A DNA stretch of 64,000 nucleotides, from positions 682,001-746,000 of the forward strand of contig WPIO01000111.1 of NCBI GenBank assembly GCA_009760855.2, given 5' to 3'. Made by a program: the position numbers and the translations under genes. The notes under the pieces are model-generated. The model did not search any database. It had not been told where the DNA came from and worked only from the letters and a program-made list of their open reading frames with translations. The stretch is from Cristatella mucedo. Its lineage: Eukaryota > Bryozoa > Phylactolaemata > Cristatellidae. Positions within the stretch are counted from its first letter, which is position 1; each line of letters begins with the position of its first letter. Positions 4,616 to 61,181 of this stretch are shown piece by piece.

Positions 4616-7069
4616 CTGCGTTCGCAGCTTGGATCCGTTCGGATGTGGAAGGCGTTAGGCCCGTAAGTAACGCAGGAGTAATTAACGAAAAGTATCCGTG
4701 GTGCATTGCTTCCGGAGTCTCCTAGCTGTTTACTTAGCTCGTAATACCCTGCTGCTCTGAGCCAACAGAGCGCTATAGTGGCCAGACCTCAAAACGGGAT
4801 CTTAGTCGATAGCTGTACGACATCCCTACTTGACTTGTATAAATCCCGTCTAGCAGGCATTCGTGCTTTCGCAACTGGGATGCTTTTGTAGGCGGAGCCA
4901 AGCTAAGTCGCTAGGCTTGAAGATGTCGAATGGGTCCTACTGCTGGCTACTGTACACCACTTCTCTCTAACCTGCATTGACAATTCATTAGGTAAAGCAC
5001 TAACTTCATTGTTCTGGCATATTCAAGTTATCTCATTCTCTTAATCTGGCTTACCTATTTGAAATATCCAGTCACTAGGCTGACCCTCATGCCACATTCT
5101 CTGATCCTACTCACCGAGCTGTTCCTTAAAACGACCCTAAATCCTTTGCAATCCGAGCCTCAGTTCATATGCACCAAAGGCCTAGGACTAGCTACCGACT
5201 TTGATAACGACATCTCCTGACTTTACGATACATAAAGCATAGCTAAGCAACCTTTCTATTCTTCATAGCATTCGCTTTGTCTTTGCAAATCATAGTTGAG
5301 TTGCTAATGCATTGTGAAATCAGGCATTCGTGTCTTGGTGTAGCCTTTTTCGGAATTATATATTGGCCGATAAGGGGAGAGATCTTGAAACCTCAGGTTT
5401 ACTGGTGCAGAGCTAGCTCAAGGGAGCTTCCCGGACTGCTCTTCTTATGGCGTTCAGCATGGATTGCTTTTATATCAGGTATTATTTACCACATGCCGCA
5501 TTCGAACACAGGGTGTATTCAACACGTCAGAATACTACGCCGCCTTTTTTATTACAACTCGAGCCAAATCCCAGTACACTGTCCGGCTCAATATAGTTAG
5601 TGCGGTTGCAGCAGTTTTGGTGCCAAGCTGCAGCCCTCTGCTATCCGTTGCCACCACCAGCGATCAGTGAGCCGATCAGTGGCAATTCGATCTACGCCGG
5701 TGTAGATAGGCATGAGGGAAACTCTCGCGACATTTCACGCCCCCCACCCCCCCCCCCGGTGAGACGCACAAAGGCAGCGAGCGATAGCAGGAAGCGCAAG
5801 ATGAAAAAGTGGATGCAAACGGAGCTCATCAGCTCCTCGCCCATTTGTAAACCGACACAGTGCAGGACTAGTAGGCGACAGCTCTCTGTTTGTCGATTCT
5901 CGCCGGCCGAGCATGAGTGGACACGAGTCGACCGAGCGACATGCTCCAGTGGGATCGAGATGGGAACGTGACATTTTTTTCTGCAGCCACTCTCTTGTCG
6001 CGAGTATGTGCTCAAGTGCGTGCCGTGTCGTTCTCAGCGCACGAACGCACACACGCACGCCACCACCCAGCTGCCAGCACCAGCGTGGCTCAGCGCTGTT
6101 TTGTCTTCTTTGAGGGAATCGCGGGTAGACATATGATATGAACTAGTGGTCGGAATGCAGTGGTCGGAAGCCTGGGTGAACCTCTCTCGGATGACAGAAT
6201 TGCTGTCGACATTTGCGATTCGTCTAAACAATTACGCTTTTGCAAACTTAAGAAAAAATTTAGTGACTGAAAGCAAAATGCCCTTTGTGGCTAGCTGTAC
6301 GCTGGCTGCTCTTTGAGGCAGGCCCTGATGCAAAATTTCCAAACTCCGGTCTTCACTTATTTATATTTACTTCGGCTTATTTATATTTACTTCAAAGTCT
6401 GCTGGCCTGGTTTTCGCCATTATTCTCCCTTTACTTACGTATATCTCGTGGGTCGGAAGGTAGTGGCAACTAGCACTATTAGCTACCGATTGCTCAGCAA
6501 GTACCATTTTGGCTGTGAGTGGGATTAGAGAGAGAGAGAAAGTCAAGTAAAATGCTGCTAGAAGTTTGTCTTCTGTGGTGCAGATTTATGTACAAAAAGA
6601 TACATTACAATCACCGGTTAAAAATTATGATTGCATTTTTCAAGTACATTACGGTATGTGTTCCGATAAAACGCATATAAGACGAATCAATGGTACCGCT
6701 TGGCTATGAAGAGGTAAAATCTGGGGGCCTGAGACTCTCCACAGGATTATATACCTGGCTCTAGAACCAGCAGAATGGCAACAGTTAGTTTACGGTGAGG
6801 ATGATCTTGAATGCTAAGGATGCATTTAGGTTGGAAAAAGTTTGCAATCAATTTGCCAAATTCAGGTCACACATTTGATTTGATTTTTTACTGACCTCTA
6901 TGAGCAGACAGCGATTTTTCAAGATGCCACGGCCACACCCTCGAGCGGCTAAATTCACCTGTGCCAATGCTGCCATTAGAGGCGCCGATAACCCCAGCAG
7001 CACTACATGTTTCCATCCTCTCAAAAGTGCTAAGTAAGTTACTCCGACGGGCTCTTTCGGGGCACTACA
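4616..7069. other. Unassigned DNA
   Basis: No coding sequence I can recognise. It contains a poly-C run at about 5745-5757 and several overlapping 60-120 codon open frames between 5600 and 6230 on both strands. None has a signal peptide, a domain motif or consistent codon use. A duplicated ATTTATATTTACTT-type stretch lies near 6358-6390. Confidence 0.45.
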
Positions 7070-8850
7070 CCTTTATCAGGCACGTCACTTGTGATCTCGT
7101 CCTGAAGTTTATATCCCAATCAAGGAAGACAACAAGTTCTTTGGACCCTATTCCCACTGTCCTGCTCCTACGTTGCGTTGATCTGCTGCTGCCATGCTTG
7201 ACTAGCATTATTAATATGTCATTAGCCTCAGGTCATGGCCTAGCACCTTTCAAAAAAGCTGTAGTCAGGCCACTTCTCAAGAAAGCGACACTAGACCAAG
7301 TGAACTTAAGCAACTACCGCCCAGTCTCACTTCTACCATTCCCTATCAAAGACAATGGAACTGGTCGTGGCACACCAGCTGAACTCATAGATCGAAACCT
7401 CACACCTTGCTAGTAAGTTCCAGTCTGGCTTTAGAGCTAATCACTCCACAGAGTCAGCGTTGCCTAGGGTATACAACAACCTACTTAAGAATGCAGACAT
7501 GGGTAGAGTGTCTCTGCTTGTTTTGCTCGATCTTTCGGCAGTTTTTGATACTATCGATCACAAAGTTCTTCTAGAGCACCACTCATCTCGCCTTGGCATC
7601 ACTGGCACTGCTCTGCAGTAGTTCAGGTCCTATCTCAGTGGGAGACTCCAGAGTATTGACGTAAATAGAAAAGATCATATTAAGTACCTCTGAAATATTA
7701 GAGTACCTAAGGGCTCCGTGCTAGGTCTGGTTCTTTTCATGGTTTACAATCTCCCTCTTGCTGATGTGATTGCCAAGCACAATCTGGGCTTTCACTTCTA
7801 TGCGGATGACGCTCAGTTGTACCTTTGCTTTGATCCCTCCCAGCCTTCGAGCACCTCAAATTCTCTCAAGTCACTTGCTGCATGTATGGATGACGCCCAC
7901 ACATGGATGGCAACACATTTTCAAAACTAAACGATGATAAAACTAACTTACTAGTTATGGGCAAACCAAGTGTGATTCAGAGATTGGAAAGGCTGACTCT
8001 CAAAATTGGCTCTGCCAGCATATCTCATGTTGAACCAGCTCGAAATCTAGGTGTCATATTCCAAAGCAACCTCTCGTTAGACGACCATATCAGCTTCACA
8101 GTCAAATCTGCCTATTTTCAGCTTCATAACATTGCTAAAATTCGTAACATTCCGTCTCGACTTCTGCAACTCACTGCTTACTGGCCTGCCAGCATGTGCG
8201 ATCAGGCAATTGCAGCTGGTGCAAAACTCCGCAGCTATGCTTGTCTGTCGTGAGCGTCGCAGTTGCCACATCACACCACTTCTCGCCGACCTGCACTGGC
8301 TACCAGTCAAGCAACGGATTGACTTCAAGGTTTTGTCGCTCACTTTTAGGTCACTTAATTCTTTGGCTCCAGCCTATCTCTCAGATCTACTACCCCACCA
8401 GGCCCAAGCATCGTACCACCAGCTTTTCGGAATCCAACAGTTTACCAATACCTTGTACAAACCGCAAATCCTTTGGAGACCGTGCATTTAGTTGGTACGC
8501 TCCCAAAGCATCGATCTCACTACCAAGTTGCCTCAGAACATCTCCTGACTAGACCACATTAAAAAAAACTTAAAAGCACGCCTATTTAGGACAGCATTAA
8601 CTGAATCCCTATGATTCGTTCTTCATGTGCTTATGGGTGCTGACACTGCATGCTGCCACTAACCAAGCTTGCATGTTGACCCTGTGCATGTCACCTATAA
8701 CCATGTTATTCATGTTATTTATCAAGCATGACATTACTCACGATTCAATCGCGTTTCCCTTGGCAGCGAATGCAAAGCGCCTAGAAGGAGATTGAGGTCT
8801 CTGAGGGCGCTTTATCAAGTGCATTATTATTATTATCATTATCATTGATG
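7070..8850 (+). pseudogene. LINE-A copy, decayed reverse transcriptase
   Basis: Plus-strand sequence follows the LINE-A ORF from the pre-RT region (DLVLKFISQS near 7085) through the RT blocks (NYRPVSLLPF, the FDTID-type block near 7545, GFHFYADDAQLY near 7790). It continues through the C-terminal region to the 3' UTR hairpin and an ATT-repeat tail at about 8822-8850. Frameshifts and stops split it into pieces of about 70-150 codons, so it is inactive. It is 5' truncated inside the linker between endonuclease and RT. Confidence 0.88.
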
Positions 8851-9881: not shown

Positions 9882-10019
9882 TCCGTTTCCGGCTACAAGA
9901 GCCTGCCGGTAGCCGTGCTCTTCTCTCAAATCGACGACCTTAAGGCTAGTGCTTCCTGGAATGTAGAGCAGTCTCAATAAGTATCTAGATTATGAATTAG
10001 ACATGCGGCACGTCGATAA

Positions 10020-10215
10020 AGTGTTTTTAATCTCAACTGCACTCCTGACTCTGCTATGCTTCCCACTTTCTCTTCGTTGCGTGCGACGAAGTCCGCTGGC
10101 TACCGAATGCGTACCGAAAGCCGCTTAGGCTGTGAGTGCGCTATACCAAGCTCTCCTGCGTAACACTCGCGTAGTGTTTACGATTTTGTGGAGTTACAGA
10201 CGGGAATACATTACA
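10020..10215 (+). mobile_element. LINE-B 3' tail
   Basis: Matches the other LINE-B tails: CTCTGCTATGCTTCCCAC, then the GGCTACCGAATGCGTACC block, GCCGCTTAGGCTGTGAGTGC, CTCTCCTGCGTAACAC and GTGGAGTTACAGACGG. It ends in ATTACATT-type repeats. It contains only the last few ORF codons plus the 3' UTR. Confidence 0.75.
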
Positions 10216-10539
10216 TTAAATTACATTTTAAACTGAAAATGAGGCTGACGGTGGAATAAATGACTGAGTACTCGTACTCTCCGAATCGGGGGGGGGCTGA
10301 CCTTGGGATGGCCGAAGTAAAGTGCTCGCATTTTTAAAGTGCGTGAGATTATTGATAACTACACGACGTTCAAAAACTATTTCAGAGCGAGTTTTTTCGA
10401 TGCCACTCGTAGGTTTACATTTCCTCGGTTCGCAAGCTAACCAAACCGATATTTCCCTATTTACTAACATCAGGACGTCTATTGGCTTGGTATTTAATTC
10501 AGTAGTAACGAGAAACCTGCTCCTGGAGAGCGTTAGCTA

Positions 10540-15410: not shown

Positions 15411-16785
15411 GGTTATAATAATAATAATAATAATATTGCACTTGATAAAGCGCCCTCAGAGAACTTAATCTCTTTCTAGGCGCTTTACATTTGCTGCAAA
15501 GTGATACGCAATAGAATAGTAAGTAAAATCATGCTTGAAAAACAAACAAAATGAATAACATGGTTAGGGGTTACATGCACTGGGTCAGCATGCAAATGTG
15601 GTCAGTGGCAGCATGAACAGTGTCAGCACGCATAAGCACATCGAGGACGAATCACAAGGACCCACTAAATGCTGTCCTAAATAGGTATGTTTTTAAGTTT
15701 CTTTTAAATTTGGTCAGGTCAGGGGATGTTCTGATGCAGGTCGGGAGGGAGTTCCAGGCTGTGGGAGCATACGAGCTAAATGCACGGTCTCCAAAGGATT
15801 TAAGGTTTGTGCGAGGTATTTCTAGACTGTTGGATTCCGAAAAGCGAGTGGTACGATGCTTTGCCTGATGGGTTAGTGTATCTGAAAGATAGGCTGGAGC
15901 CATAGAATGAAGAGACCTAAAAGTGAGCGACAAAACCTTGAAGTCAATCCGTTGCTTGACTGGTAACCAGTGCAGGTCGGCGAGAAGTGGAGTAATGTGG
16001 CAACTGCGACGCTCACGACAGACAAGCCTAGCTGCAGAGTTTTGCACCAGCTGCAATCGCCTGATCGTACATGCTGGTAGGCCAGTCAGCAGTGATTTGC
16101 AGAAGTCGAGACGAGATGTCACGAATGCATGGACCAACTTGGACGTGGTATCCTTATCTAAACAAGCCCTAATTTTAGCAATGTTATGAAGCTGAAAATA
16201 GGCTGATTTGACTGTGGAGCTGATGTGGTCGTCTAACGAGAGGTCGCTTTGGAATATGACACCTAGATTTCGAGCTGATGCAACTGGAGATATGCTGGCA
16301 GAGCCAATTTTGAAAGTCAGCCTTTCCAATTTCTGAATAACACTAGGTTTGCCCATAACTAGTAGGTTAGTTTTATCATCGTTTAGTTTTAGAAAATTTG
16401 CTGCCATCCATGATCGGATGTCATCAATGCATGCAGCAAGTGAGTTGAGAGAATTTGAGGTGCTCGAAGGCTGGGAGGGATCAAAGCAAAGGTACAACTG
16501 AGTGTCATCCGCATAGAAGTGAAAGCCTAGATTGTGCTTGGCAATCACATCAGCGAGAGGGAGAGTATAAACGGTGAAAAGGACCGGACCTAGCACAGAG
16601 CCCTGAGGTACTCCATATTTTAGAGGTACTTCAGATGATCTTTGTCCATTCACGTCAACACTCTGGAGTCTCCCACTGAGATAGGACCTGAACCACTGCA
16701 GAGCAGTGCCAGTGATGCCCAGGCGAGATGAGAGGCGCTCTAGAAGTACTTTGTGATCGATGGTATCAAAAGCTGCCGAAAGATC
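15411..16785 (-). pseudogene. LINE-A copy, 5' truncated within RT
   Basis: Minus strand. An uninterrupted 333-codon frame (15652-16653) carries GVPQGSVLGPVLF, GFHFYADDTQLY and the C-terminal region ending FSGSL. It is followed by the 3' UTR and (AAT)n tail at 15417-15435. The element breaks off near 16785, inside the AAFDTID block, where the sequence turns unrelated (compare the longer copy at 41610). With no endonuclease or RT N-terminus it is dead, but the clean frame indicates recent insertion. Confidence 0.9.
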
Positions 16786-17080
16786 GACGAATCGAAAGAT
16801 CGAGGTTAAGCAACTAGGCTTCGGTCAGCGACGAGAGAGCTTATACACTGAGTGACTTACTTGGGTCCAGCCAGGTGGGATAAAGCCAAGCGAGTGGTCC
16901 ACCATTATGAAGCTACGTTGGTACACGAAGGGGCGAGGGTTGCGACCTCCGTTCTGTGTAAATAAAGGCACATCTAATCTGGTGCCCTGCGGTGCCTTAG
17001 CAAAATACGGCAGCTAGGTTAACTGGGGCGGTTCTAGGCTGAGGTGGTACCACGCCCACATGAGGAGAGTGGACAGTGGG
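16786..17080. other. Unassigned DNA
   Basis: Starts at the 5' break of the LINE-A copy. Contains AATAAAGG near 16960, a possible polyadenylation signal with no coding sequence assigned to it. Confidence 0.4.
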
Positions 17081-20719: not shown

Positions 20720-20945
20720 GGTTATTTTGAGATTATGACACACTCGTTGGATTATGGGCTGCTGCGATGTATGGCACTAGTATATAAGCAACGGTGGCAA
20801 AGGCCCGACGAGTGAGATCTAGGACTTCAGGCGGGGGCTGTCGCGTAACGGTCCGCTGCGGAGTCTGTGTGAATAAACATCTTTGAGCTCGCTCCGGTGT
20901 TCTGTGCGGTATCGCGTACCTGCCGCTTAGAGAATGTCAAACTAC
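20720..20945 (+). repeat. LTR-like direct repeat, left copy
   Basis: Paired with 22803-23025. Shared blocks are GGTTATTTTGAGATTATGAC, GTTGGATTATG, GTATATAAGCAACG (TATA-like here), GCAAAGGCCCGACGAGTGAG, GTGTGAATAAAC (polyadenylation-like) and CTTAGAGAATG. A TATA box followed by a polyadenylation signal within about 230 bp is LTR architecture. The similarity runs through the ATG of the gag-like ORF, which is odd for an LTR because a primer-binding site should intervene. Confidence 0.6.
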
Positions 20946-21404
20946 GAAGCTATGTCGGCAGAAGCGACAGAGAGCCCACGCCAGGAGACGATGCTGGAAT
21001 ACCTGTATGTCGGGGACGACTTCGTAAGCTGCCTGCTCGAGTCGGAGAGAAGGCTTAATGAAAGAGGAGTCGATCCAGCTTGGTGGCACATGCACATATA
21101 TGTGTTCCTTGCGGGCGGTGCATTAACGTTCGCAGTGACCCTTCCTGACTCGGTGCAAGAGAACTTTGCCCAGCTGCGTGCAGCACTTGTAAAGGTTTTT
21201 GCAGGCCCTGACGGTGAAGAGAGGCTTCGGCGGTCGGACTTTCAGAGTGCCAGGAAAGCAGAGGCGATAGCACAGAAGCGGCTAGAGGTGGAGGTGGGTA
21301 AAGCGCGGCTGCTTCGGTCGGATTTGGCAAACGCTGGTCGGACTGAGGACGTCGACAAGAGTGACCGGGAGCGGCAGCAGCAAATGCTAACGGTGTCCCG
21401 GTAG
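20934..21404 (+). CDS. Gag-like protein, probably of an LTR element
   Basis: 156 codons from ATG (MSNYEAMSAEAT). The middle, about residues 45-90, has WWHMHIYVFLAGGALTFA followed by LPDSVQENFAQLRAALVKVF. This is the helical pattern of a Ty3-type capsid (a W...FL.G.A..W/F...LP motif, then a W/F..L...L...F helix). The C-terminal third is charged and coiled-coil-like (RLEVEVGKARLLRSDL). No zinc knuckle, protease or RT follows; downstream sequence is repetitive. Family assignment rests on pattern only. It could also be a domesticated gag-like host gene. Confidence 0.4.
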   Translation: MSNYEAMSAEATESPRQETMLEYLYVGDDFVSCLLESERRLNERGVDPAWWHMHIYVFLAGGALTFAVTLPDSVQENFAQLRAALVKVFAGPDGEERLRRSDFQSARKAEAIAQKRLEVEVGKARLLRSDLANAGRTEDVDKSDRERQQQMLTVSR

Positions 21405-23594: not shown

Positions 23595-24428
<834 letters not shown>

Positions 24429-27255: not shown

Positions 27256-27892
27256 TGGAACACATTTCCGATTACCATCGTATCATAATGTTTTGGCAGT
27301 CGGGGATAATTGCCCCTTGATTTCATTAAATTTAAAAAACAGCTAAAAATCCACGCGCTTCACACAGGATCGGCTCTGCCCATGCTGTCTGTCATTTCGC
27401 CTTCTAATGCATGCCGACAATGGGGAACATTAGTGCTCACAAATCAAGCGAGCTCCCTCTTGAGCACATGTACAGGGCCCAGCGACCGACTTAGCTCTTC
27501 CAAAGTGCTCTGAAATGTCTTAGTTATCATCGCTAGTGTTATCATCACAATCGTTATTATGATTAGCCTCGTTGCACATGTCGAGTGGGAAGACCCGACG
27601 GAGCTGCTGCACTCCTCGGTAGCAGCAGCAGCGGTAGCAGCAGCAGCTCGGCTCGTCCACCTCCCGGGTTAGAGGTCAGCACGGTCAGAGGTTAGAGCGG
27701 TCAGCAGATAAGGGATTTGGAAAATCTGAAACGACCTTTACCGATTTATTACCAATCGCACTGTTATCACCAGAAGGCTGCTTGTCTCCTAGGCCACGCA
27801 TCAGGCTTCGGGCGAAGAGGGGGATCAATCAGCCACGTTGCCCACTATTGATTAGCTTAAAAAAAATGCAATGAATAAATACAAATATTGGC
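27256..27892. other. Unassigned DNA with CAG/CAGCAG patch
   Basis: Short LINE-A-like phrase near 27318-27345 (GATTTCATTAAATTTAAAAA, resembling the TTFKRNLK region) and an AGCAGC repeat at about 27618-27650. No gene recognised. Confidence 0.4.
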
Positions 27893-28045
27893 TGATTTAA
27901 CAGCCTCATTTGTACAGCCGCTAAAGAGCCGTTAAGGCTGTCGCCGCCGCTTGCAGTTGCCACTAGGAGATTGCCCACTGCATGATTCGAATCCACGACC
28001 TCGGTAGTGAAGAGCGAGCACCTTACCATCTGTTCTATCACAGCT
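27893..28045 (-). mobile_element. SINE-B (tRNA-derived)
   Basis: Reverse complement of the SINE-B consensus: TGATTTAACAGCCTCATTTG, CTAAAGAGCCGTTAAGGCTG, GATTGCCCACTGCATGATTC and GAATCCACGACCTCGGTAGT (B box region). An A-box-like AGCACCTTACCATCTG follows. Other copies lie near 29.4, 34.3, 37.4, 45.6, 46.4, 49.9 and 57.6 kb. Confidence 0.82.
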
Positions 28046-28129: not shown

Positions 28130-29250
28130 GTGTTCACTTTGTATCGTGTGATGGTCAAGTATCTTCGAGCAGACCAGAATTCTACGCGATTCCACGAGGA
28201 TTGCTTCTCGGTCCTCTGCTGTTCTTCGCTTATGACAAACCTCTGGTATAAGTGGCTCCGGCTTGGTGGTCACTTCTATACTGACAACGGCCAGCTTTTT
28301 TTGCCGTTTAAACCATTGAAATACGCCGCGACCGGTCATAAACTGAATGCTTGCCTTGCAGTCATTCGATCCTGGATGTCGGCAAAATGACTTAAGCCAA
28401 ATGACGATAAATCCGTGCTCTTAATCATAGGACACCCCTACCGTACTGCTGGACTAGATGACTTTGCTCTTCTAATTGATGTTGTTGCAGGGAGACCTTC
28501 ACCGTATGCACGTAATTAACTGCTTTAAACCATCAAAAAGCTCACTGAGAAGACTGCTTCCACAGCAAGCCATCACTTTAGATCTCTGTCCAGGATTAGG
28601 GTTTCTACCACGATGACGTGCTACAAATGTAAGTAGCTCCCAAGTTCCGTCAAGGCAAGAGTACTACAATCAAGTTGTGGCTTGGGTCATTAGGTTTTTG
28701 CAGCCGATGATGAATGTGTTAAGGCTAGTTAACAAATAGCTGAGGTTCAGCCAGGTGTCTCGTTTGCTGAATGAGCGTCCTTGTCTTCCGATTGATCAAC
28801 GGCCACAGAGTACAGTTCTTACGCTGGCCCTCGAGGGCTTGGCACTTTCATATCTAGCAGAACTGCCGCACCAGAATCAGCCTTTTTGTGCCCTCAAATC
28901 CTCGACGGACAAAAATTAGCTATCACATGTCTCTGCTTACGAACCGTTGGCGACAGAATCTGTTGCTGTGCATGTCCTAGACGGTAGGACTCACTTCCGA
29001 AATTCTTCCGTAACGAATTCTCATCTACTGCTGCTGAAAACGGTTAAACCTTTACAGCCATCCTGGGCTGCTACTTCTATGCAACTCATTCCTCCGATTA
29101 CTCTGTAGACAGAGCTACGCTTCTCACTTTCTCTTTGCTGCATGCGATAAAGTGTGCTGGCTTCCGCATGCTTATTGAAAGCAGCTTAGGTTTTTTGTGC
29201 GCATTAGAAAACTCTAATGCGTAGCACTGAAACATAGTCCTCGCGGCTTC
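28130..29250 (+). pseudogene. LINE-B copy, decayed RT to tail
   Basis: Plus translation retains RT fragments (a GLLLGPLLFFAYD-like stretch across a frameshift near 28190, then GGHFYTDNGQLFLPF where a YADD box is expected, and HKLNACLAVIRSWM). It continues to the C-terminal region near 28815-29050 and a 3' UTR ending near 29250. The catalytic box reads YTDN, so it could not be active even apart from its frameshifts. Confidence 0.7.
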
Positions 29251-29354
29251 CTGCATACGGAGATAGAAGCTCGCGAACAGCGATCGCTCGATCAATGCCT
29301 TGGCTTGCCGAGCCGTAGGCTGAGGCCGAGCGCACAGCTTCTCGTTGGTGAGCT

Positions 29355-29515
29355 GCGACGGCATACCAGGTAAGGCAGTTGCTTTTCATGAGCTAGGTCC
29401 AGAGGTCGTGGGTTCGAATCGTGCAGTGTGTGATCCTTTATCGCCACTGCAAGCGGTGGCGATATCCGTAAAGGCTCTTCTGCCGCTATTCAAAAGAGGA
29501 TGTTATATCAGCCAC
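29355..29515 (+). mobile_element. SINE-B copy
   Basis: ACCAGGTAAGGCAGTTGCTT, CAGAGGTCGTGGGTTCGAAT (B box), a GTGTGATCCTTTATCGCCAC block, AAAGGCTCTTCTGCCGCTAT and a CAAAAGAGGATGTTATATC end. Confidence 0.82.
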
Positions 29516-30207
29516 AAGTCGTGCTGCGCCAGCGCCTTCGCACGGGCGCAGCACTCACTCGGCGCGACTGCCCTGCGACCTCCCATATTCAACTTCTCGG
29601 TGCCTCGTCCACATCTTCCCACAGGTATTTTCATTTACGGCGGTTCGTCGAGCGCTCCCGTCACGTAGCGTAGGCCATAAATCGGCTCGCGACCGGCTAA
29701 GAGCGTCGCGCCCGCAGCGACGGGCGCCGCCGTTTCTCTTTTTTCGATGGTAAACAGAGCAGAGCTGGCTTCGCTCCCCCCCCCCCGCAGCAGCCGCCGC
29801 GGCCTCGCCCGTTACGAGCGTCTGCTCGTGACCTTGCTCCACCGTCCGACTAGCTGGCGCGTTCTTGCTGGTAGCCGCCGCGGACGCAATGCGGCGGGCG
29901 CGTACGTGCGCGAGCGATAGAGAGCGAGCATCGGCTTGCACAGCCCGCGCTCTCGCTACCGCCTCCCGCGCATTGCGGGGCAGAGGCCGGGCCGCGGCGA
30001 ACGCCACAGTCAGCAGCCGGAGCGCCGGCGCTCAATCGTCGGGGCGCACTTCGGCGGCCAAGTCCACGCCGCCAGGATCCCGGTCACGTGAGGCCGCGTG
30101 AGTCGTGCGCCGCAGCTCGCAGCTCGCGGGAGTCGCCGCCGGCGGCCACGACGACGGATAGCCGAGCCGCATCGGCGCACGCGGCGCACACAAACGCATC
30201 GGCGCCG

Positions 30208-31002
30208 ATGACGTCGGCGACGACGGCGCCGACCGCGGCGGCGGCGGCGGGCGGGCGCGCGCGCGCGTGCGAGAAAAGCAGAGCGACGGGCGCGCGCGCG
30301 TGCGGCGCGCTCTTCGCCGTCGCGGCCGCCGCCCTCTTCCTCAACCTGGCCGGCGAGGTGCGCCAGCTCAAGCTGCAGTACGGCGAGGCGAGGCTGCAGA
30401 TCGAGCGCCTCCGCTCCGAGGTCAACGCCTACAAGTTCGACTCGCTGACCAAGCTCGCCACGCGACGCGACTTCGGCAAGCTGCTCAAGACGCTCTGGGC
30501 GAGGTGGACGCGACGCGGCCAGCCGTTCACGTTCGCCATGATCGACCTGGACAACTTGCACGCCATCAACCGTCGCTTCGGCTTCCAGGCGGGCGACGCC
30601 TTCATACGCTCGGTCGCCGCCGAGCTGCAGCGGCGCTGCAACGACTCGAACGTGTTCCGCATCGGCGGCGACGAGTTCGCCGTGCTGCGCACGCGCGACG
30701 ACGCCAACGCCACGGCGCACAGCCTGGCGGACATGCGCGGCGTGCAGTACTTCGTCGCCGCCAGCGGCGACGCGCCGACGTCGGTGAAGCGCTCGTCCGA
30801 GTTCTTCGACCTCGTCGACCGCGGCCTGATCGCGCGCAAGAAGGGCCGCCGCGACACCTGGTGGTGGCCCGAAGCGGCCGCAGCCGGCGGCGGCGGCGGC
30901 GCTTTCGCGGGCACGGCGGCGCCGCGCTCTGACGCGGCACCGAGCTCGCCCAACAGAAGCGCCTCCGGGCGGACGATGGCGAGCTTGGAACCGCGGCACT
31001 AG
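30208..31002 (+). CDS. Membrane-anchored GGDEF-domain (diguanylate-cyclase-like) protein
   Basis: Predicted to make cyclic di-GMP from two GTP, if active. From the ATG chosen here (264 codons) there is an Ala-rich basic N-terminus, a hydrophobic segment at about residues 33-49 (GALFAVAAAALFLNLAG), and a short coiled coil (about 50-77, LQIERLRSEV). A complete GGDEF domain follows: DSLTKLATRRDF at 78 onward, AMIDLDNLHAINRRFG with GD (about 110-130), FRIGGDEFAVL (GGDEF 153-157), and a C-terminal VDRGLIARKKGRRD matching the usual AD.AL..AK..GRN end. The stretch after GGDEF is shorter than usual. An Ala/Gly/Ser-rich tail follows. The frame is open upstream to 29875 without an ATG, so an upstream exon or earlier start is possible. 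No intron is needed. The frame is GC-rich unlike its neighbours. Alternatives are horizontal transfer, an old animal GGDEF family, or assembly contamination; the eukaryotic polyadenylation signal and flanking SINE/LINE argue against the last. Confidence 0.82.
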   Translation: MTSATTAPTAAAAAGGRARACEKSRATGARACGALFAVAAAALFLNLAGEVRQLKLQYGEARLQIERLRSEVNAYKFDSLTKLATRRDFGKLLKTLWARWTRRGQPFTFAMIDLDNLHAINRRFGFQAGDAFIRSVAAELQRRCNDSNVFRIGGDEFAVLRTRDDANATAHSLADMRGVQYFVAASGDAPTSVKRSSEFFDLVDRGLIARKKGRRDTWWWPEAAAAGGGGGAFAGTAAPRSDAAPSSPNRSASGRTMASLEPRH

Positions 31003-31423
31003 CGCGTCATCCCTAGCGAAGAGCCCGAGCGAAGCGCGCGCCAAGGGCGCGCAGGCCGACGTCCGGCGGCGACAGCGCTCGCGGAGCTTGCCTTCCGGTC
31101 CGAGCCGCTATCGTCGCGACGGCGCGCGTGCCGCGGCGGCGTCTGCGTGCAAACGTGTGCCGCACGACTGCTCTCGTTGCAGAGCGCTTGAGCGCTACGA
31201 GTACTCCTGCTTGAGCGCTCGGAGCGCGTGAGTCGCCTGCCTCGTGCTGTATGCAGCGGAGGCTGGGAGCGTGCGGCGGCGGAGAATGGCTCGAGCGGCC
31301 ATCATCATCCATCGACGCCCAACGGCCCGGCGACCCGATCCGAGCTGCAAGGACTAGCCGCAGAGCGGTCGAGCTGGTGACGCGCTGCTGCGAAAAGATT
31401 CGGCCTCGTGCTAGAGCGAGCGC

Positions 31424-31429
31424 AATAAA
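31424..31429 (+). terminator. Polyadenylation signal AATAAA
   Basis: Canonical hexamer about 420 bp after the GGDEF stop codon, at the edge of the CpG island and in the right orientation. A T/G-rich stretch follows near 31480-31520. It is the likely 3' end of the GGDEF transcript. Confidence 0.5.
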
Positions 31430-31499
31430 TAGTGACGATGAGTCGTGCACAGAACTAACCGGAGAAGCGCCACACACGAATGAGGTATCCCTTTCGTGA

Positions 31500-32110
31500 C
31501 TCGCGGTTTGGTAATTGTCGTTGCGTAAGAACTCTGGAAGTGAGTTTCACAGTCTAGAAGCTGCAGAACAAAAGCTACTGACTTACTATTCTTAAAGTGT
31601 AGGAATGGAACGGCTAATTTATTTTCCATAGAGAACCTGAGAGCATGAGGAGGCTGAAACTTGTACTCTAGTTAAGCTAGGTATGGAGCAGCCATGCCTT
31701 GGCGGTCCTTGTGGGTCAGCGTAATAATAATAACAATAATGCACTTGATAAAGCGCCCTCAGAGAACTTAATCTCTTTCTAGGCGCTTTACATTTGCTGC
31801 AAAGTGAAATGCAATTGAATGGTAAGTAAAATCATGCTTGAAAAACAAACAAAATAAATAATATGGTTAGGGGTGACATGCACAGGGTCAGCATGCAAAT
31901 GTGGTTAGTGGCAGCATGCACAACGTAAGAACTTTATTCTGTATCCGCCGATCAACCGGCGGCCACCCAAGCTCTCCCAGCAAAGGAGACACTTGGTCAA
32001 ACCTCTGGAATTTGTAAACTAGCTTTGCAGCCGAATTCATCGCCCGCTGCAATAGTGCCACGTGGCCTATTTCATTAGCCCAGCCAAAACGGAGTTGCAG
32101 CAATTCAATC
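31500..32110 (-). pseudogene. LINE-B fragment, split by a LINE-A insertion
   Basis: The two halves (31500-31719 and 31929-32110) are adjacent in intact LINE-B. The right half encodes QRAMNSAAKLVY and SPLLGELGWPPVDRRIQ on the minus strand. The left half is the downstream C-terminal tail (PSYL.ELL-like, then a diverged LWN region). The split falls in GGTCAGCGTAAGAACTTT, which is continuous in the copy at 23939 (as its reverse complement). Confidence 0.85.
31720..31928 (-). mobile_element. LINE-A tail inserted into LINE-B, with target-site duplication
   Basis: About 200 bp of LINE-A 3' UTR, minus orientation, from (AAT)n to GTGGTTAGTGGCAGCATGCA. It is bounded by CGTAA at 31720-31724 and again at 31924-31928, duplicated from the LINE-B target. 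Severely 5' truncated. Confidence 0.88.
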
Positions 32111-34279: not shown

Positions 34280-34445
34280 AGGAAAGTCGTTATGGCGCAC
34301 TAGGTAAGGCGGTTGCTTTTCACGACCTCGGTCCCGATGTCGTGGGTTCTAATCCTGCGGTGGGCGATCCTTTATCGCCAATGCAAGCGGTGGTGATAGC
34401 CTTAAAGGCTCTTCCGTCGCTATACAAAAGAGGCTGTTAAATCAG
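34280..34445 (+). mobile_element. SINE-B copy
   Basis: GGCGCACTAGGTAAGGCGGT (A-box region), GATGTCGTGGGTTCTAATCC (B box), GGGCGATCCTTTATCGCCAA, AAGGCTCTTCCGTCGCTATA and AAAGAGGCTGTTAAATCAGC. Best-preserved SINE-B here. Confidence 0.87.
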
Positions 34446-34514
34446 CTGGTTTTTAATTTTTAATTTAATCTGTCATAAAGTGACCTCGTTCATTCATATT
34501 GCATCGATTGATCG

Positions 34515-40050: not shown

Positions 40051-40242
40051 CATTATCAATCAAAGCATGAAGGATGATAACATTTTAGAAATACGCCAGG
40101 AGATATCTTGAACGTACCATCCATAAATCGATGCGAATAGTTGAATAGTTCTGAAACCACTTCAGGTTTGCTGCAGTACCGAACATGAATATCCTGTTGA
40201 TATCTTGATCATCCGAATCCCGAAGATTTTCAGAACGTGTTA

Positions 40243-43105
40243 ATAATAATAATAATAATTCACTTGATAAAGCGCCCTCAGAGAACTTAATCTCTCTCTC
40301 GGCGCTTTACATTTGCTGTAAAGTGAAATGCCATTGAACGGTAAGTAAAATCATGCTTGAAAAAAATAAACGAAATGAATAATATGGTTAGGGGTGACAT
40401 GCACAGGGTCAGCATGCAAATGTGGTTAGTGGCAGCATGCACAGTGTCAGCACGCATAAGCACATCAAGGACGAATCACAGGGACCCACTAAATGCTGTC
40501 CTAAATAGGTGTGTTTTTAGGTTCCTTTTAAATGTGGTCAGGTCAGGGGATGTTCTGACGCAAGTCGGGAGGGAGTTCCAGGCTTTGGGAGCATATGAAC
40601 TAAATGCACGGTCTCCAAAGGATTTGAGGTTTGTATGAGGTATTTCTAGACTGTTGGATTCCGAAAAGCGAGTGGTACGATGCTTAGCCTGATGGGGTAT
40701 TATATCTGACAGATAGGCTGGAGCCATAGAATGAAGGGACCTAAAAGTGAGGGACAAAACCTTGAAGTAAATCCGTTGCTTGACTGGTAGCCAGTGCAGG
40801 TCGGCGAGAAGTGGAGTAATGTGGCAACTGCGACGCTCACGACAGACAAGCCTAGCTGCAGAGTTTTGCACCAGCTGCAATCGCCTGATCTCACATGCTG
40901 GTAGGCCAGTAAGCAGTGAGTTGCAGAAGTCGAGACGGGATGTCACGAATGCATGGACCAACTTGGACGTGGTATCTTTATCTAAACAAGCCCGAATTTT
41001 AGCTATGTTATGAAGCTGAAAATAGGCGGATTTGACTGTGGAGCTGATATGGTCGTCTAACGAGAGGTCGCTTTGGAATATGACACCTAGATTTCGAGCT
41101 GATTCAACTGGAGATATGCTGGCAGAGCCACTTTTGAGAGTCAGCCTTTCCAATCTCTGGATCACACTGGGTTTGCCCATAACTAGTAAGTTAGTTTTAT
41201 CATCGTTTAGTTTTAGAAAATTTGCTGCCATCCATGTGCGGATGTCATCAATGCATGCAGCAAGTGAGTTTAGAGAATTTGAGGTGCTCGAATGCTGGGA
41301 GGGATCAAAGCAAAGGTACAACTGAGTGTCATCTGCATAAAAGTGAAAGCCTAGATTGTGCTTGGCAATCACATCAGCAAGAGGCAGAGTATAAACCGTG
41401 AAAAGAACCGAACCTAGCACTGAGCCCTGAGGTACTCCATATTTCAGAGGTACTTCACATGATCTTTGTTCATTCACGTCAATACTCTGGAGTCTCCCAC
41501 TGAGGTATGACCTGAACCACTGCAGAGCAGTGCCAGTGATGCCCAGGCGAGATGAGAGGCGCTCTAGAAGAACTTTGTGATCGATGGTATCAAAAGCTGC
41601 CGAAAGATCGAGCAAAACAAGCAGAGACACTCTACCCATGTCTGCATTCCTAAGTAGGTCGTTGTATACCCGAAGCAATGGTGACTCTGTGGAGTGATTA
41701 GCTCTAAAGCCAGACTGGAACTTACTAGAAAGGTGTGAGGTTTCGATATACGAGTTCAGCTGGTCCCCGACGACCCGTTCCAGTGTCTTTGATAGGAATG
41801 GTAGAAGGGAAACTGGGCGGTAGTTGCTCAAGTTCTCTTGGTCAAGTGTAGTTTTCTTGAGAAGTGGCCTGACTACTGCTTTTTTGAAAGGTGCTGGGAT
41901 CTGACCTGAGGCTAATGACATATTAATTATGTTAGTTATGCATGGCAGCAGCAGATCAATGCAACGTAGGAGCAGGACAGTGGGAATAGGGTCCAGAGGA
42001 CTCGTTGTCTTTTTTGATTGAGATACAAACTTTAGGACTAGATCACTAGTGACCTGCTTAAATGCAGACATTGAGGTGCAGCCAGGAACCGAGGAACAGC
42101 ATTCTAGTGGGGAGTTTTTCATCACAGGGATGGATTCCCTGATCTTGTCTATCTTCTGCACAAAGAATCGAGAGAAGCAATCGGCTAGATCATCATTAGG
42201 ATCATCAGGTAAGGAGCTAATCTGGGAACGGTTGAGGAGATGGTTTATTGTCGACATCAGCATTTTTGGATTGTGCATCTGTGATTCAACAATGTTTTTA
42301 TAAAAACTAGACTTAGCCTTTGCTAGGATTGATTGGTACGACCTACAGTAGTCTTCATATGCCTGTCGATGGACAGTTAGTCCTGATCTTTTGTATGCTT
42401 TTTCAAGCTTTCGTTTAGTAGACGTGGCTAGTTTAATGTCTGTGGTAAACCATAGGCCGTCTGGGCGGGGGCGCACAGTGCGCTTTGTCCGAGGGGCAAA
42501 CTCGTCTAGCGTGTCAGCTAGTGTCGTGTTGAAGCTATCTACTAATGATGACAGATCGGAGGGAGGATTGAGCAGCAGAGGTGAAGCAGATATTCTCGCA
42601 CGGACAGCATCGATGTCAAGGGTCTTGAGGTTTCGCGATTCACAGGTTATTTTAGAGGATGATGTGGGCACACACTGTAGATTGAATGAGATCTGCATGT
42701 GGTCAGATAAGCATGATTTGGTAATAATTGGTGATGACAAAGTGCAGTTATATGAGAAAATCTGGTCGAGTGTGTGACCCTTAATGTGGGTAGGGCCATG
42801 CACATGAGCCACAAGAGACAATGAGTCAGTCAATGCACAAAATTCGGTGCTGAAAGCGTCAGATAAGTTATCAAAGTGAACGTTGAAATCACCCATTACG
42901 AGGAAGGATCGATTTCTTGCACACAGAATCGAAATGAGATCGGAGAAATCTGAGATAAAGGAGGATTTGGTACCTGGTGGGCGATAGACTACTGCCACTA
43001 TCGGTACCCTGTTTTCTGGTGAGACCAAGACAATTGATTCAAAAGACTGATTTGATACCATAAGAGTATCCAGAAGAATTATATCTTGAATATAATGGGG
43101 CATGG
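40243..43105 (-). mobile_element. LINE-A, near-intact ORF2 (endonuclease C-half plus reverse transcriptase)
   Basis: One uninterrupted minus-strand frame of 875 codons (40476-43103). The N-terminal part is the C-terminal half of an APE-like endonuclease: VVYRPPG, FLVMGDFNVHFDN, THIKGHTLDQIF and the SDH of CLSDHMQISF. A linker follows, then a full non-LTR RT with NYRPVSLLPF, LLDLSAAFDTIDH, GVPQGSVLG and GFHFYADDTQLY (about residues 586-597), and a C-terminal domain with CRERRSCHITPLLADLHWLP. The order and motifs fit the CR1/L2 group of the Jockey superfamily. The 3' UTR, terminal hairpin and (AAT)n lie at 40243-40475. No ORF1 is present and the endonuclease N-half is missing; sequence resembling endonuclease continues past an in-frame TAG near 43136, so the 5' end is broken or truncated. 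The first Met shown is not the native start. Confidence 0.93.
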
Positions 43106-43135
43106 GGGTATCGACAACAGCCTTCTTTCGCTACA

Positions 43136-45655: not shown

Positions 45656-46960
45656 AGCATTGATGTCAATCAGGAACAGTCAATCGATGTGCCTCAAAAG
45701 CACGGGGTACCCCAGGACTCCGTACTTGGGGTTCACTTCTTTCTCAATGTATGCCTTCCATCTTGCAAAATGTAGTCGTCAAGACAAATCTGGGCTTTCA
45801 CTTCCATACAAATGACTCGCATCTGTTTCTGTGCTTTGACCCACCCATCCTTTTGCTGGATTATCAAACTCTCTCAGCTCATTGCTATTTGTATTGCTAA
45901 CATTAGCACTTGAGTTGCAGCAATTTGAATAACGGTCGTAGCAGATTACTTTCTATGGCCAGAATAATTGATATTTATAAATTCCTCAAGAAGGGCTTAT
46001 CCAATATATCTGATGTAGCATCTGCACAAAATCAAGGTGTCCTATTTCAATGTGATTCCACACGAATATCACGTGACCTTCTCTTAGCTCCACAGTCAAG
46101 TCTGCCTCATCTCAGCTGTGTGACATTACAAAATTTTGAACAAGCTTAAGACAAGGAGGCCACATCCGTTTTGATCCATGCATTTGCTACATGGCGACTT
46201 TAACTCATTACTTGCAAGTCGTCTGGCCTGTACAATAAGGTACTTAAAGTTCTTTACAACTCGAGATCCAGACTTTTTTGACGTGGAAACCAAAATTGCT
46301 ACATTACAATACTTCGCACTGACCTGCACTGTCTCCTTGGTGAGCCGTGATGGCACACTAGGTAAGGCGGTTGCTTTCACGACCTCAGTCCCGAGGTCGT
46401 GGGATCGATTCCTGCGGTGGGTAATCCTCTATCGTCACTGCAAGCGGTGCTGACAGCCGAAAAGGCTCTTCTGTCGCTACACAAAAGAGACTGTCTAATG
46501 AGCTATGATTTACTTATAAAGCAGCGTATCGGAGGCATCGAGGTTTTGTCACCCACTCTTAGTTCTCTCCACTCTCTCACCCAGCAGCAGGACTGGTCCC
46601 CATTGAGGCCAGGTATCGTCCCGAACACTGACGAAAGTCGTGTAGCTGGGGCACGAACCAGCCTCAATCATTTGGAGACTGTGCCTTAAGTTTGTATGCT
46701 CCCAAAGCCTAGAGCGCACTGCCAACTGAAGTTAGGACGCTGAAGGCAGGAAGTTAGGTTTCTGACTGGACCTAATTAAAACAGAAGCTAGAAACGCATC
46801 TATTCCTCATAGCAACAGTCTAGGTCCACGCCACTTGTCTTTTATGTGGCGATGGGTGCTTATGCTGTGCGTGCTCCAACTAACAACATTGTCGTGCTTC
46901 AATTACAGCACACGAAAAGTGCCTGGAGATATTTTCTTTACTGCTGGCGCTCTACACAAG
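45656..46960 (+). pseudogene. LINE-A copy, old, interrupted by SINE-B
   Basis: Fragments follow the ORF in order: CCTCAAAAGCACGGGGTACC (the VPLKYGVPQGS region), TGGGCTTTCACTTCCATACA (the YADD region, now decayed), and ACTTCGCACTGACCTGCACT. After the SINE-B come AGGTTTTGTCACCCACTCTT, TATGCTCCCAAAGCCTAGAG and a weak hairpin end near 46920-46960. Heavily mutated. Confidence 0.7.
46335..46505 (+). mobile_element. SINE-B inserted in LINE-A
   Basis: GATGGCACACTAGGTAAGGC, GTCCCGAGGTCGTGGGATCG (B box), GGGTAATCCTCTATCGTCAC, AAAAGGCTCTTCTGTCGCTA and CACAAAAGAGACTGTCTAAT. It sits inside the ADLHWLPVKQRID region of LINE-A, whose two sides resume on either side. Confidence 0.85.

Positions 46961-49407: not shown

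Positions 49408-61181
<11,774 letters not shown>

Follow-up and report, generated by a model that had tools for sequence, protein, structure and literature searches.

Bacteria have a hallmark second messenger, which GGDEF enzymes produce, and they also possess degenerate GGDEF domains that only bind. In PleD, a conserved lysine touches phosphate; in known enzymes, the equivalents of residues Asn121 and Asp130 of the protein described here read guanine. Among eukaryotes, the precedent is dictyostelid DgcA, which was gained by lateral transfer and whose role is proven. It was already named in the initial annotation of this locus, and is the sole eukaryotic GGDEF case found in the available portions of the open-licence literature. 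Among the literature matches listed, none has a title that announces a GGDEF gene in the genome of an animal, and no description was found in the open-licence literature of the product of the compact phage GGDEF family considered below; the accessible part of a jumbo-phage review contains GGDEF only in a reference title (PMC7824862). According to the available text of one study, GGDEF genes are common contaminants of eukaryote genomes, and absence from relatives is a mark of contamination (PMC4931340). In mussel larvae, STING mediates a response to bacterial c-di-GMP, as stated in the accessible part of a further paper (PMC11190208).

The DNA under study, called the window below, is the whole 64-kb stretch of Cristatella mucedo. 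The GGDEF gene initially annotated at 30208..31002 on the plus strand is borne out. It is an intact single-exon coding sequence, starting at the first in-frame ATG (30208) and encoding 264 aa followed by a stop, with no internal stops. Pfam family PF00990 (GGDEF) matches residues 77–168 with 73.1 bits (E = 2.9e-20, cut-off 23.8) and the NCBIfam GGDEF domain model TIGR00254 matches with E = 1e-18; both are far beyond chance. No sensor domain was found in the protein by Pfam. The GC content at codon positions 1, 2 and 3 is 0.65, 0.58 and 0.95 (73% overall), whereas three flanking stretches of 600 bases, two of which overlap, are flat, with 0.585–0.72 in every phase; this periodicity marks the open reading frame (ORF) as coding sequence.

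The predicted product is a membrane-anchored compact GGDEF protein, a layout shared with its relative P0001. As had been proposed, a hydrophobic anchor and a helix precede the domain. The candidate membrane segment comprises residues 31–49 (30298..30354, +), with a top 19-residue Kyte–Doolittle mean of 1.98, and is hydrophobic in P0001 too. In the window protein, its 15-residue flanks carry charges of +4 on the N-terminal side and +1 on the C-terminal side; in P0001 the values are +1 (six residues only) and +2, a balance that points to neither side of the membrane. A long helix is predicted over residues 25–76, of which residues 50–76 (30355..30435, +) form a stalk resembling phage proteins in the alignments (ERLRSEV..YKFD). 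The compact GGDEF domain occupies residues 77–215 (30436..30852, +), with the GGDEF signature at residues 153–157 (30664..30678, +), and the predicted structure has the full GGDEF fold. The tail rich in Ala, Gly, Pro and Ser (residues 217–264; 30856..30999, +) is weakly conserved from residue 222 on and is modelled mostly with low confidence, with a pLDDT of 42–50 in the last five blocks.

The relative P0001 is a 238-aa protein encoded on a contig of 1409 bases and is 75% identical to the window protein at 88% coverage. Common to both are the membrane segment, the stalk, the GGDEF domain and a TWWWP motif. Identity is highest in the core (residues 76–162; 82 of 87 sites), followed by the C-terminal lobe (45/59), the stalk (19/25) and the membrane segment (16/23). 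From membrane segment to lobe, 162 of 194 sites are identical, against 19 of 40 aligned sites in the tail (residues 222–264; Fisher p = 4e-6). Selection on the protein is likely, since such a contrast between core and tail is not expected of a decayed gene. In a search of 5.8 billion sequences with residues 44–150, 34 candidates were scored and P0001 alone passed, so close relatives are rare in that mainly prokaryotic collection.

The initial interpretation is partly supported: the GGDEF gene looks to be part of animal DNA, but the closest kin of the protein, compact GGDEF proteins of large bacteriophages, were missed. This group was recruited with a profile built from the window protein, P0001 and P0002, together with alignment-based IMG/VR scans. 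It consists of short stand-alone GGDEF proteins of 136–234 aa (median 168, 67 rows). The profile already included a compact member, P0002, and the kinship was therefore re-scored with one query sequence at a time, the targets being 226 listed proteins plus ORFs from 95 viral loci. When the window protein is the query, ranks 2–33 are all compact (several represent one contig fetched twice), led by L037 (108.0 bits) and P0134 (106.9 bits), and the first ordinary GGDEF protein, P0150, follows at rank 34 with 72.7 bits. With P0001 alone, ranks 2–37 are compact, L037 being the best at 117.1 bits, and the first ordinary protein has 71.2. A run that lacked the second batch of viral loci agrees with this. 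Identity to the window protein is 31–39% in the nearest phage proteins. IMG/VR scans with the window protein, P0001 or P0134 singly gave no confirmed relative, and the phage family was reached by alignments only. In INPHARED, tblastn searches of named phages matched 101, 72, 13, 34 and 21 records, compact and ordinary GGDEF together, all below 60% identity.

The loci carrying compact GGDEF genes look, by their sequence, like phage. The PHROGs matched around these genes include a DnaB-like helicase, a head maturation protease, ribonucleotide reductase, DNA ligase and a homing endonuclease; two of ten neighbour proteins in one set and one of ten in the other had no PHROG match. The two phage contigs nearest to the animal gene share gene order (L037:8458–16663 and L038:1855–10350; ORFs of at least 130 aa): an ATP-dependent DNA ligase, the GGDEF gene, an unknown gene, a head maturation protease-like gene and, after one or two further ORFs, ribonucleotide reductase genes. 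Compact GGDEF genes also adjoin ribonucleotide reductase genes at L042:7699–10471, assigned by PHROG, and at L001:64–3814, assigned by appearance; L001 contains, in addition, a short ORF that is HU-like by appearance. The 206-kb viral contig L058 encodes a protein of the nuclear-shell family (PHROG 4795, E = 2.8e-40). Its gene (5856–7769, −) lies near the compact GGDEF gene (9965–10477, +), with two listed ORFs between them, and a nucleus-forming phage may thus encode a cyclase of the compact type.

The active site of the window protein carries the mark of this family. Position 118 (30559..30561, +), which we take to be equivalent to Lys332 of PleD, is His in both animal-type rows (the window protein and P0001) and in 54 of the 67 compact rows, the other 13 having Lys, against Lys in all 30 ordinary rows. 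Position 117 is Leu in the animal pair and in 67/67 compact rows; the ordinary rows have Phe (21), Leu (8) or Met (1). According to counts from the alignment, both animal-type rows have 54 residues between GGDEF and the conserved Lys, compared with a median of 51 in compact rows (5–95%: 44–55.7) and 65 in the 30 ordinary rows (5–95%: 56.5–70). That lysine, Lys211 (30838..30840, +), is present in 67/67 compact and 29/30 ordinary rows. The window protein thus shares the short spacing, Leu117 and His118 with the compact family. It departs from the family's stand-alone form without an anchor, both it and P0001 carrying the hydrophobic segment.

Asp113, Asn121, Asp130, Asp155, Glu156 and Lys211 are all retained in the window protein; their roles with metal, guanine and phosphate are presumably those of their PleD equivalents. 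All six metal, guanine and C-terminal phosphate residues expected of an active diguanylate cyclase are therefore present, but the Lys at 118 is not. The initial claim that every landmark of the domain is present needs correction, since not all are canonical: at 118, the Lys that normally follows the metal-binding stretch has become His; in the HxxGD motif, Phe replaces His; at the site of the inhibitory RxxD of WspR, the alignment to WspR has a two-residue gap; and the spacing is short (54 residues against a median of 65). Likewise, the label of a diguanylate-cyclase type is right as to the domain and less certain than the list of motifs implies, because the changed active-site residue of the phage kin is carried here too. 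His118 in place of Lys may alter or abolish activity; it is common to most compact phage proteins and for that reason appears to be a family feature rather than decay.

A catalytically inactive protein that serves as a sensor of GTP or another nucleotide, as a scaffold or as a binder of cyclic dinucleotides, and that is kept for its binding, is a serious but less probable alternative. The replacement of Lys118, the loss of His from HxxGD and the shortened C-terminal lobe are what such a protein might show, and bacterial domains of this binding-only kind provide a parallel. On the other hand, an enzyme without activity should have dropped some of residues 113, 121, 130, 155, 156 and 211, all of which are kept, and the core is nearly invariant between two relatives that have otherwise diverged. 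A phage-type protein that probably still acts as a cyclase is the reading preferred here.

A phylogeny, called for in the initial annotation, was calculated from 107 rows: 37 compact proteins that the protein search had yielded, 38 short ORFs of viral loci, 30 ordinary GGDEF proteins and the two animal-type rows. The ordinary rows were chosen by identifier among the 226 P proteins listed, and only their domain was kept. The label ‘compact’ was first given to all viral ORFs of up to 205 aa, and eight of the 38 fell among the ordinary rows and were left out of the 67. In the main tree, a branch with support of 100/99 separates the 67 compact rows and the animal pair from the remainder, and the pair groups with P0134, L037 and L038 at 98/85. 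The stem of the pair is long, with 1.14 changes per column, and a tree that holds the 67 compact rows together without the pair fits no worse (p-AU 0.525). In a reduced tree of 90 rows, from which 17 long or odd rows were removed, 27 ordinary rows split off at 100/99 and the animal pair is sister to 61 compact rows with weak support (72/64). For this reduced set, the AU test does not reject the nested placement (p = 0.514) and rejects a tree in which the pair groups with the ordinary protein that matches it best (p = 0.022). In a core-only tree (two rows without the motif were dropped), which is little resolved and in which the bootstrap had not settled, P0134 and L037 are nearest after P0001. 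Judged from these trees, the animal pair can fairly be called kin of the compact phage GGDEF proteins, placed either within their clade or next to it.

The nested and outside placements fit equally well, which leaves room for a donor other than a phage, namely a bacterium or another virus with an unsampled compact GGDEF gene, the phages being cousins of the donor. This is considered rather unlikely. A first genome scan with A1 gave 126 stretches and no confirmed relative. A second, bacterial genome scan with alignment A3 gave at least 595 stretches, at least 540 of them confirmed; 80 of these relatives were kept, a share that itself speaks for the possibility of an unsampled donor. No ORF from the 80 kept loci scores as high as the best phage proteins: the best reaches 77.4 bits, against 108.0 for the best phage protein. 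It belongs to the Collinsella protein L096, which has 69.2 bits with P0001 and resembles the weaker compact members. The top-ranked ORFs of the kept loci are long (305–1453 aa) and not stand-alone domains, with one short protein, L109 (203 aa), also present. A phage or phage-like donor thus remains the preferred source, and transfer in the direction of the animal is suggested because the phage lineages are many and deep.

The gene lies within an island of about 2 kb that is rich in G+C and CpG (29500..31500). In 250-base steps across it, GC is 0.61–0.76 and the observed/expected CpG ratio is 1.22–1.51, compared with a CpG ratio of 0.86 for the whole window. The initial annotation placed the gene in the animal chromosome, citing flanking SINE and LINE copies and an AATAAA signal. 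The latter is present at 31424..31429 (+) as a candidate polyadenylation signal, and repeats that recur in the window with 69–94% identity were found at both island edges. The upstream edge carries an interspersed repeat, by appearance a tRNA-like SINE (29340..29514), which matches 46332–46489, 49904–50065, 34299–34446 and 27889–28002 at 79–86%. The downstream edge carries repeat fragments (31511..31922), of which 31518–31727 matches 23944–24154 at 78% and 31722–31922 matches 40241–40443 and 15419–15619 at up to 94%. Matches to other places in the window at 69–78% were seen for 28814–29239, on the upstream side, and for 31511–31727. No tRNA was detected in the 64 kb by ARAGORN (bacterial code), and no Rfam family at the gathering score.

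Elsewhere in the window, two exon segments of a protein-tyrosine phosphatase, presumably of the IA-2/PTPRN type, lie at 55050–55217 and 56592–56789 on the minus strand. Both are preceded by AG; the first is also bounded by GT, and the 3′ border given for the second is approximate. The third codon positions of the two segments have a GC of 0.71 and 0.95, so the 0.95 of the GGDEF gene fits in with this genome. The window also contains a reverse-transcriptase ORF (RVT_1, E = 4.3e-29). A stop-free LINE ORF of 884 aa at 40476–43130 (−), possibly a young copy, has an RVT_1 match and weaker endonuclease matches below the cut-off, and a similar-looking ORF is located at 15652–16824 (−). An ORF of 157 aa at 20931–21404 (+) has a protein-like composition and no Pfam match; 21-base and GA repeats come after it. 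Apart from the GGDEF gene, six ORFs of the window were compared with Pfam: three of them gave a match to phosphatase or reverse transcriptase, and the others gave none. The phosphatase exons and the reverse-transcriptase ORFs point to an animal, and to nothing narrower. A viral insert was considered and rejected: phosphatase and reverse transcriptase were the only matches among these ORFs, and the single-sequence IMG/VR scans had returned no confirmed relative.

Contamination or a chimeric join, with bacterial or phage DNA inside an animal contig, would be in keeping with the frequency of GGDEF contaminants described in the available text of PMC4931340, but is very unlikely here. Near-identity to a bacterial gene, which the initial annotation had set against its own reading, was not seen: apart from P0001, no row among the matches listed (120 of 211 and 120 of 2149) exceeds 48% identity over at least 30% of the query, and even the nearest phage proteins are far from identical. 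Six phage loci measured have 27–32% GC, against 73% in the coding sequence. The G+C-rich flanks of the ORF contain stops in all six frames on both sides, and repeats recurrent in the window abut the island at either edge. Absence from relatives is a contamination mark according to the accessible part of the same study (PMC4931340), and P0001 has the same anchored form elsewhere; if it truly comes from a relative, the gene is present in one. On the evidence of the sequence, the gene looks to sit in the animal chromosome, a placement supported by the repeats on both sides, host-like codon use, the conserved P0001 and the lack of a near-identical prokaryotic gene among the rows listed. The passage of an old eukaryotic GGDEF family to phages is the least credible explanation: the unrooted placement leaves the direction unfixed, but the 67 compact rows are many and deeply split against only two, mutually close, animal-type rows, a scarcity that is a weak test because the sequence collections used consist almost entirely of prokaryotes and prokaryotic viruses.

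Taken together, the gene is rather likely to be a horizontally acquired phage-type GGDEF gene under selection, whose product is probably still a membrane-anchored cyclase that uses GTP. A large bacteriophage or phage-like source would have supplied a compact stand-alone GGDEF gene to the animal. After transfer, the gene would have gained the N-terminal membrane anchor and the disordered tail, and adopted the G+C-rich codon use of the host. The anchor would hold the protein in the membrane, the helical stalk would pair two copies, and two GTP-loaded domains facing each other could join GTP into a cyclic dinucleotide. The most likely product would be c-di-GMP, because Asn121 and Asp130 are kept; classical product feedback is not expected, since no inhibitory site is recognisable.

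A more far-reaching version, in which an animal lineage took up a phage GGDEF gene, anchored it and makes its own cyclic dinucleotide as an input to STING or another receptor, with the chemistry tuned by the His, is put forward tentatively. If true, an intact and conserved GGDEF gene would give animals a possible internal source of cyclic dinucleotides that is new, and its phage kinship would be one more instance of genes passing from bacteriophages, or from close relatives of them, into animals. An endogenous cyclic dinucleotide could feed animal STING, which can respond to c-di-GMP according to the available portion of PMC11190208; the link of this protein to STING is speculation. The compact phage proteins themselves point to a family of phage enzymes whose active site is altered, one member of which is encoded in a contig with a nuclear-shell gene.

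Compared with known systems, the window protein is 15–29% identical to solved bacterial diguanylate cyclases (3ign; PleD, 2wb4 and 1w25; WspR, 3i5c; DgcB, 6ttr) among the 50 fold matches listed. It differs from them in having His for Lys at position 118, no recognisable inhibitory site, a shorter C-terminal lobe and no Pfam sensor domain. With dictyostelid DgcA, as described in the available text, it would share the acquisition of a GGDEF gene by a eukaryote through lateral transfer; DgcA, however, belongs to Amoebozoa and not to an animal, and its role is proven. The closest likeness is to the compact phage GGDEF proteins (L037, L038 and P0134, and also L001, L002, L040 and L058), which have the same stalk followed by YK[FY]D..T....R.DF, Leu117, mostly His118, a DSNVFRIGGDEF-like block and a short C-terminal lobe whose end has the form Asp, six residues, Lys. 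The aligned phage proteins show no anchor and start at the stalk or with unrelated short leaders, and the six phage loci measured are AT-rich, whereas the window protein possesses an anchor and a tail and is encoded with 95% GC at codon position 3.
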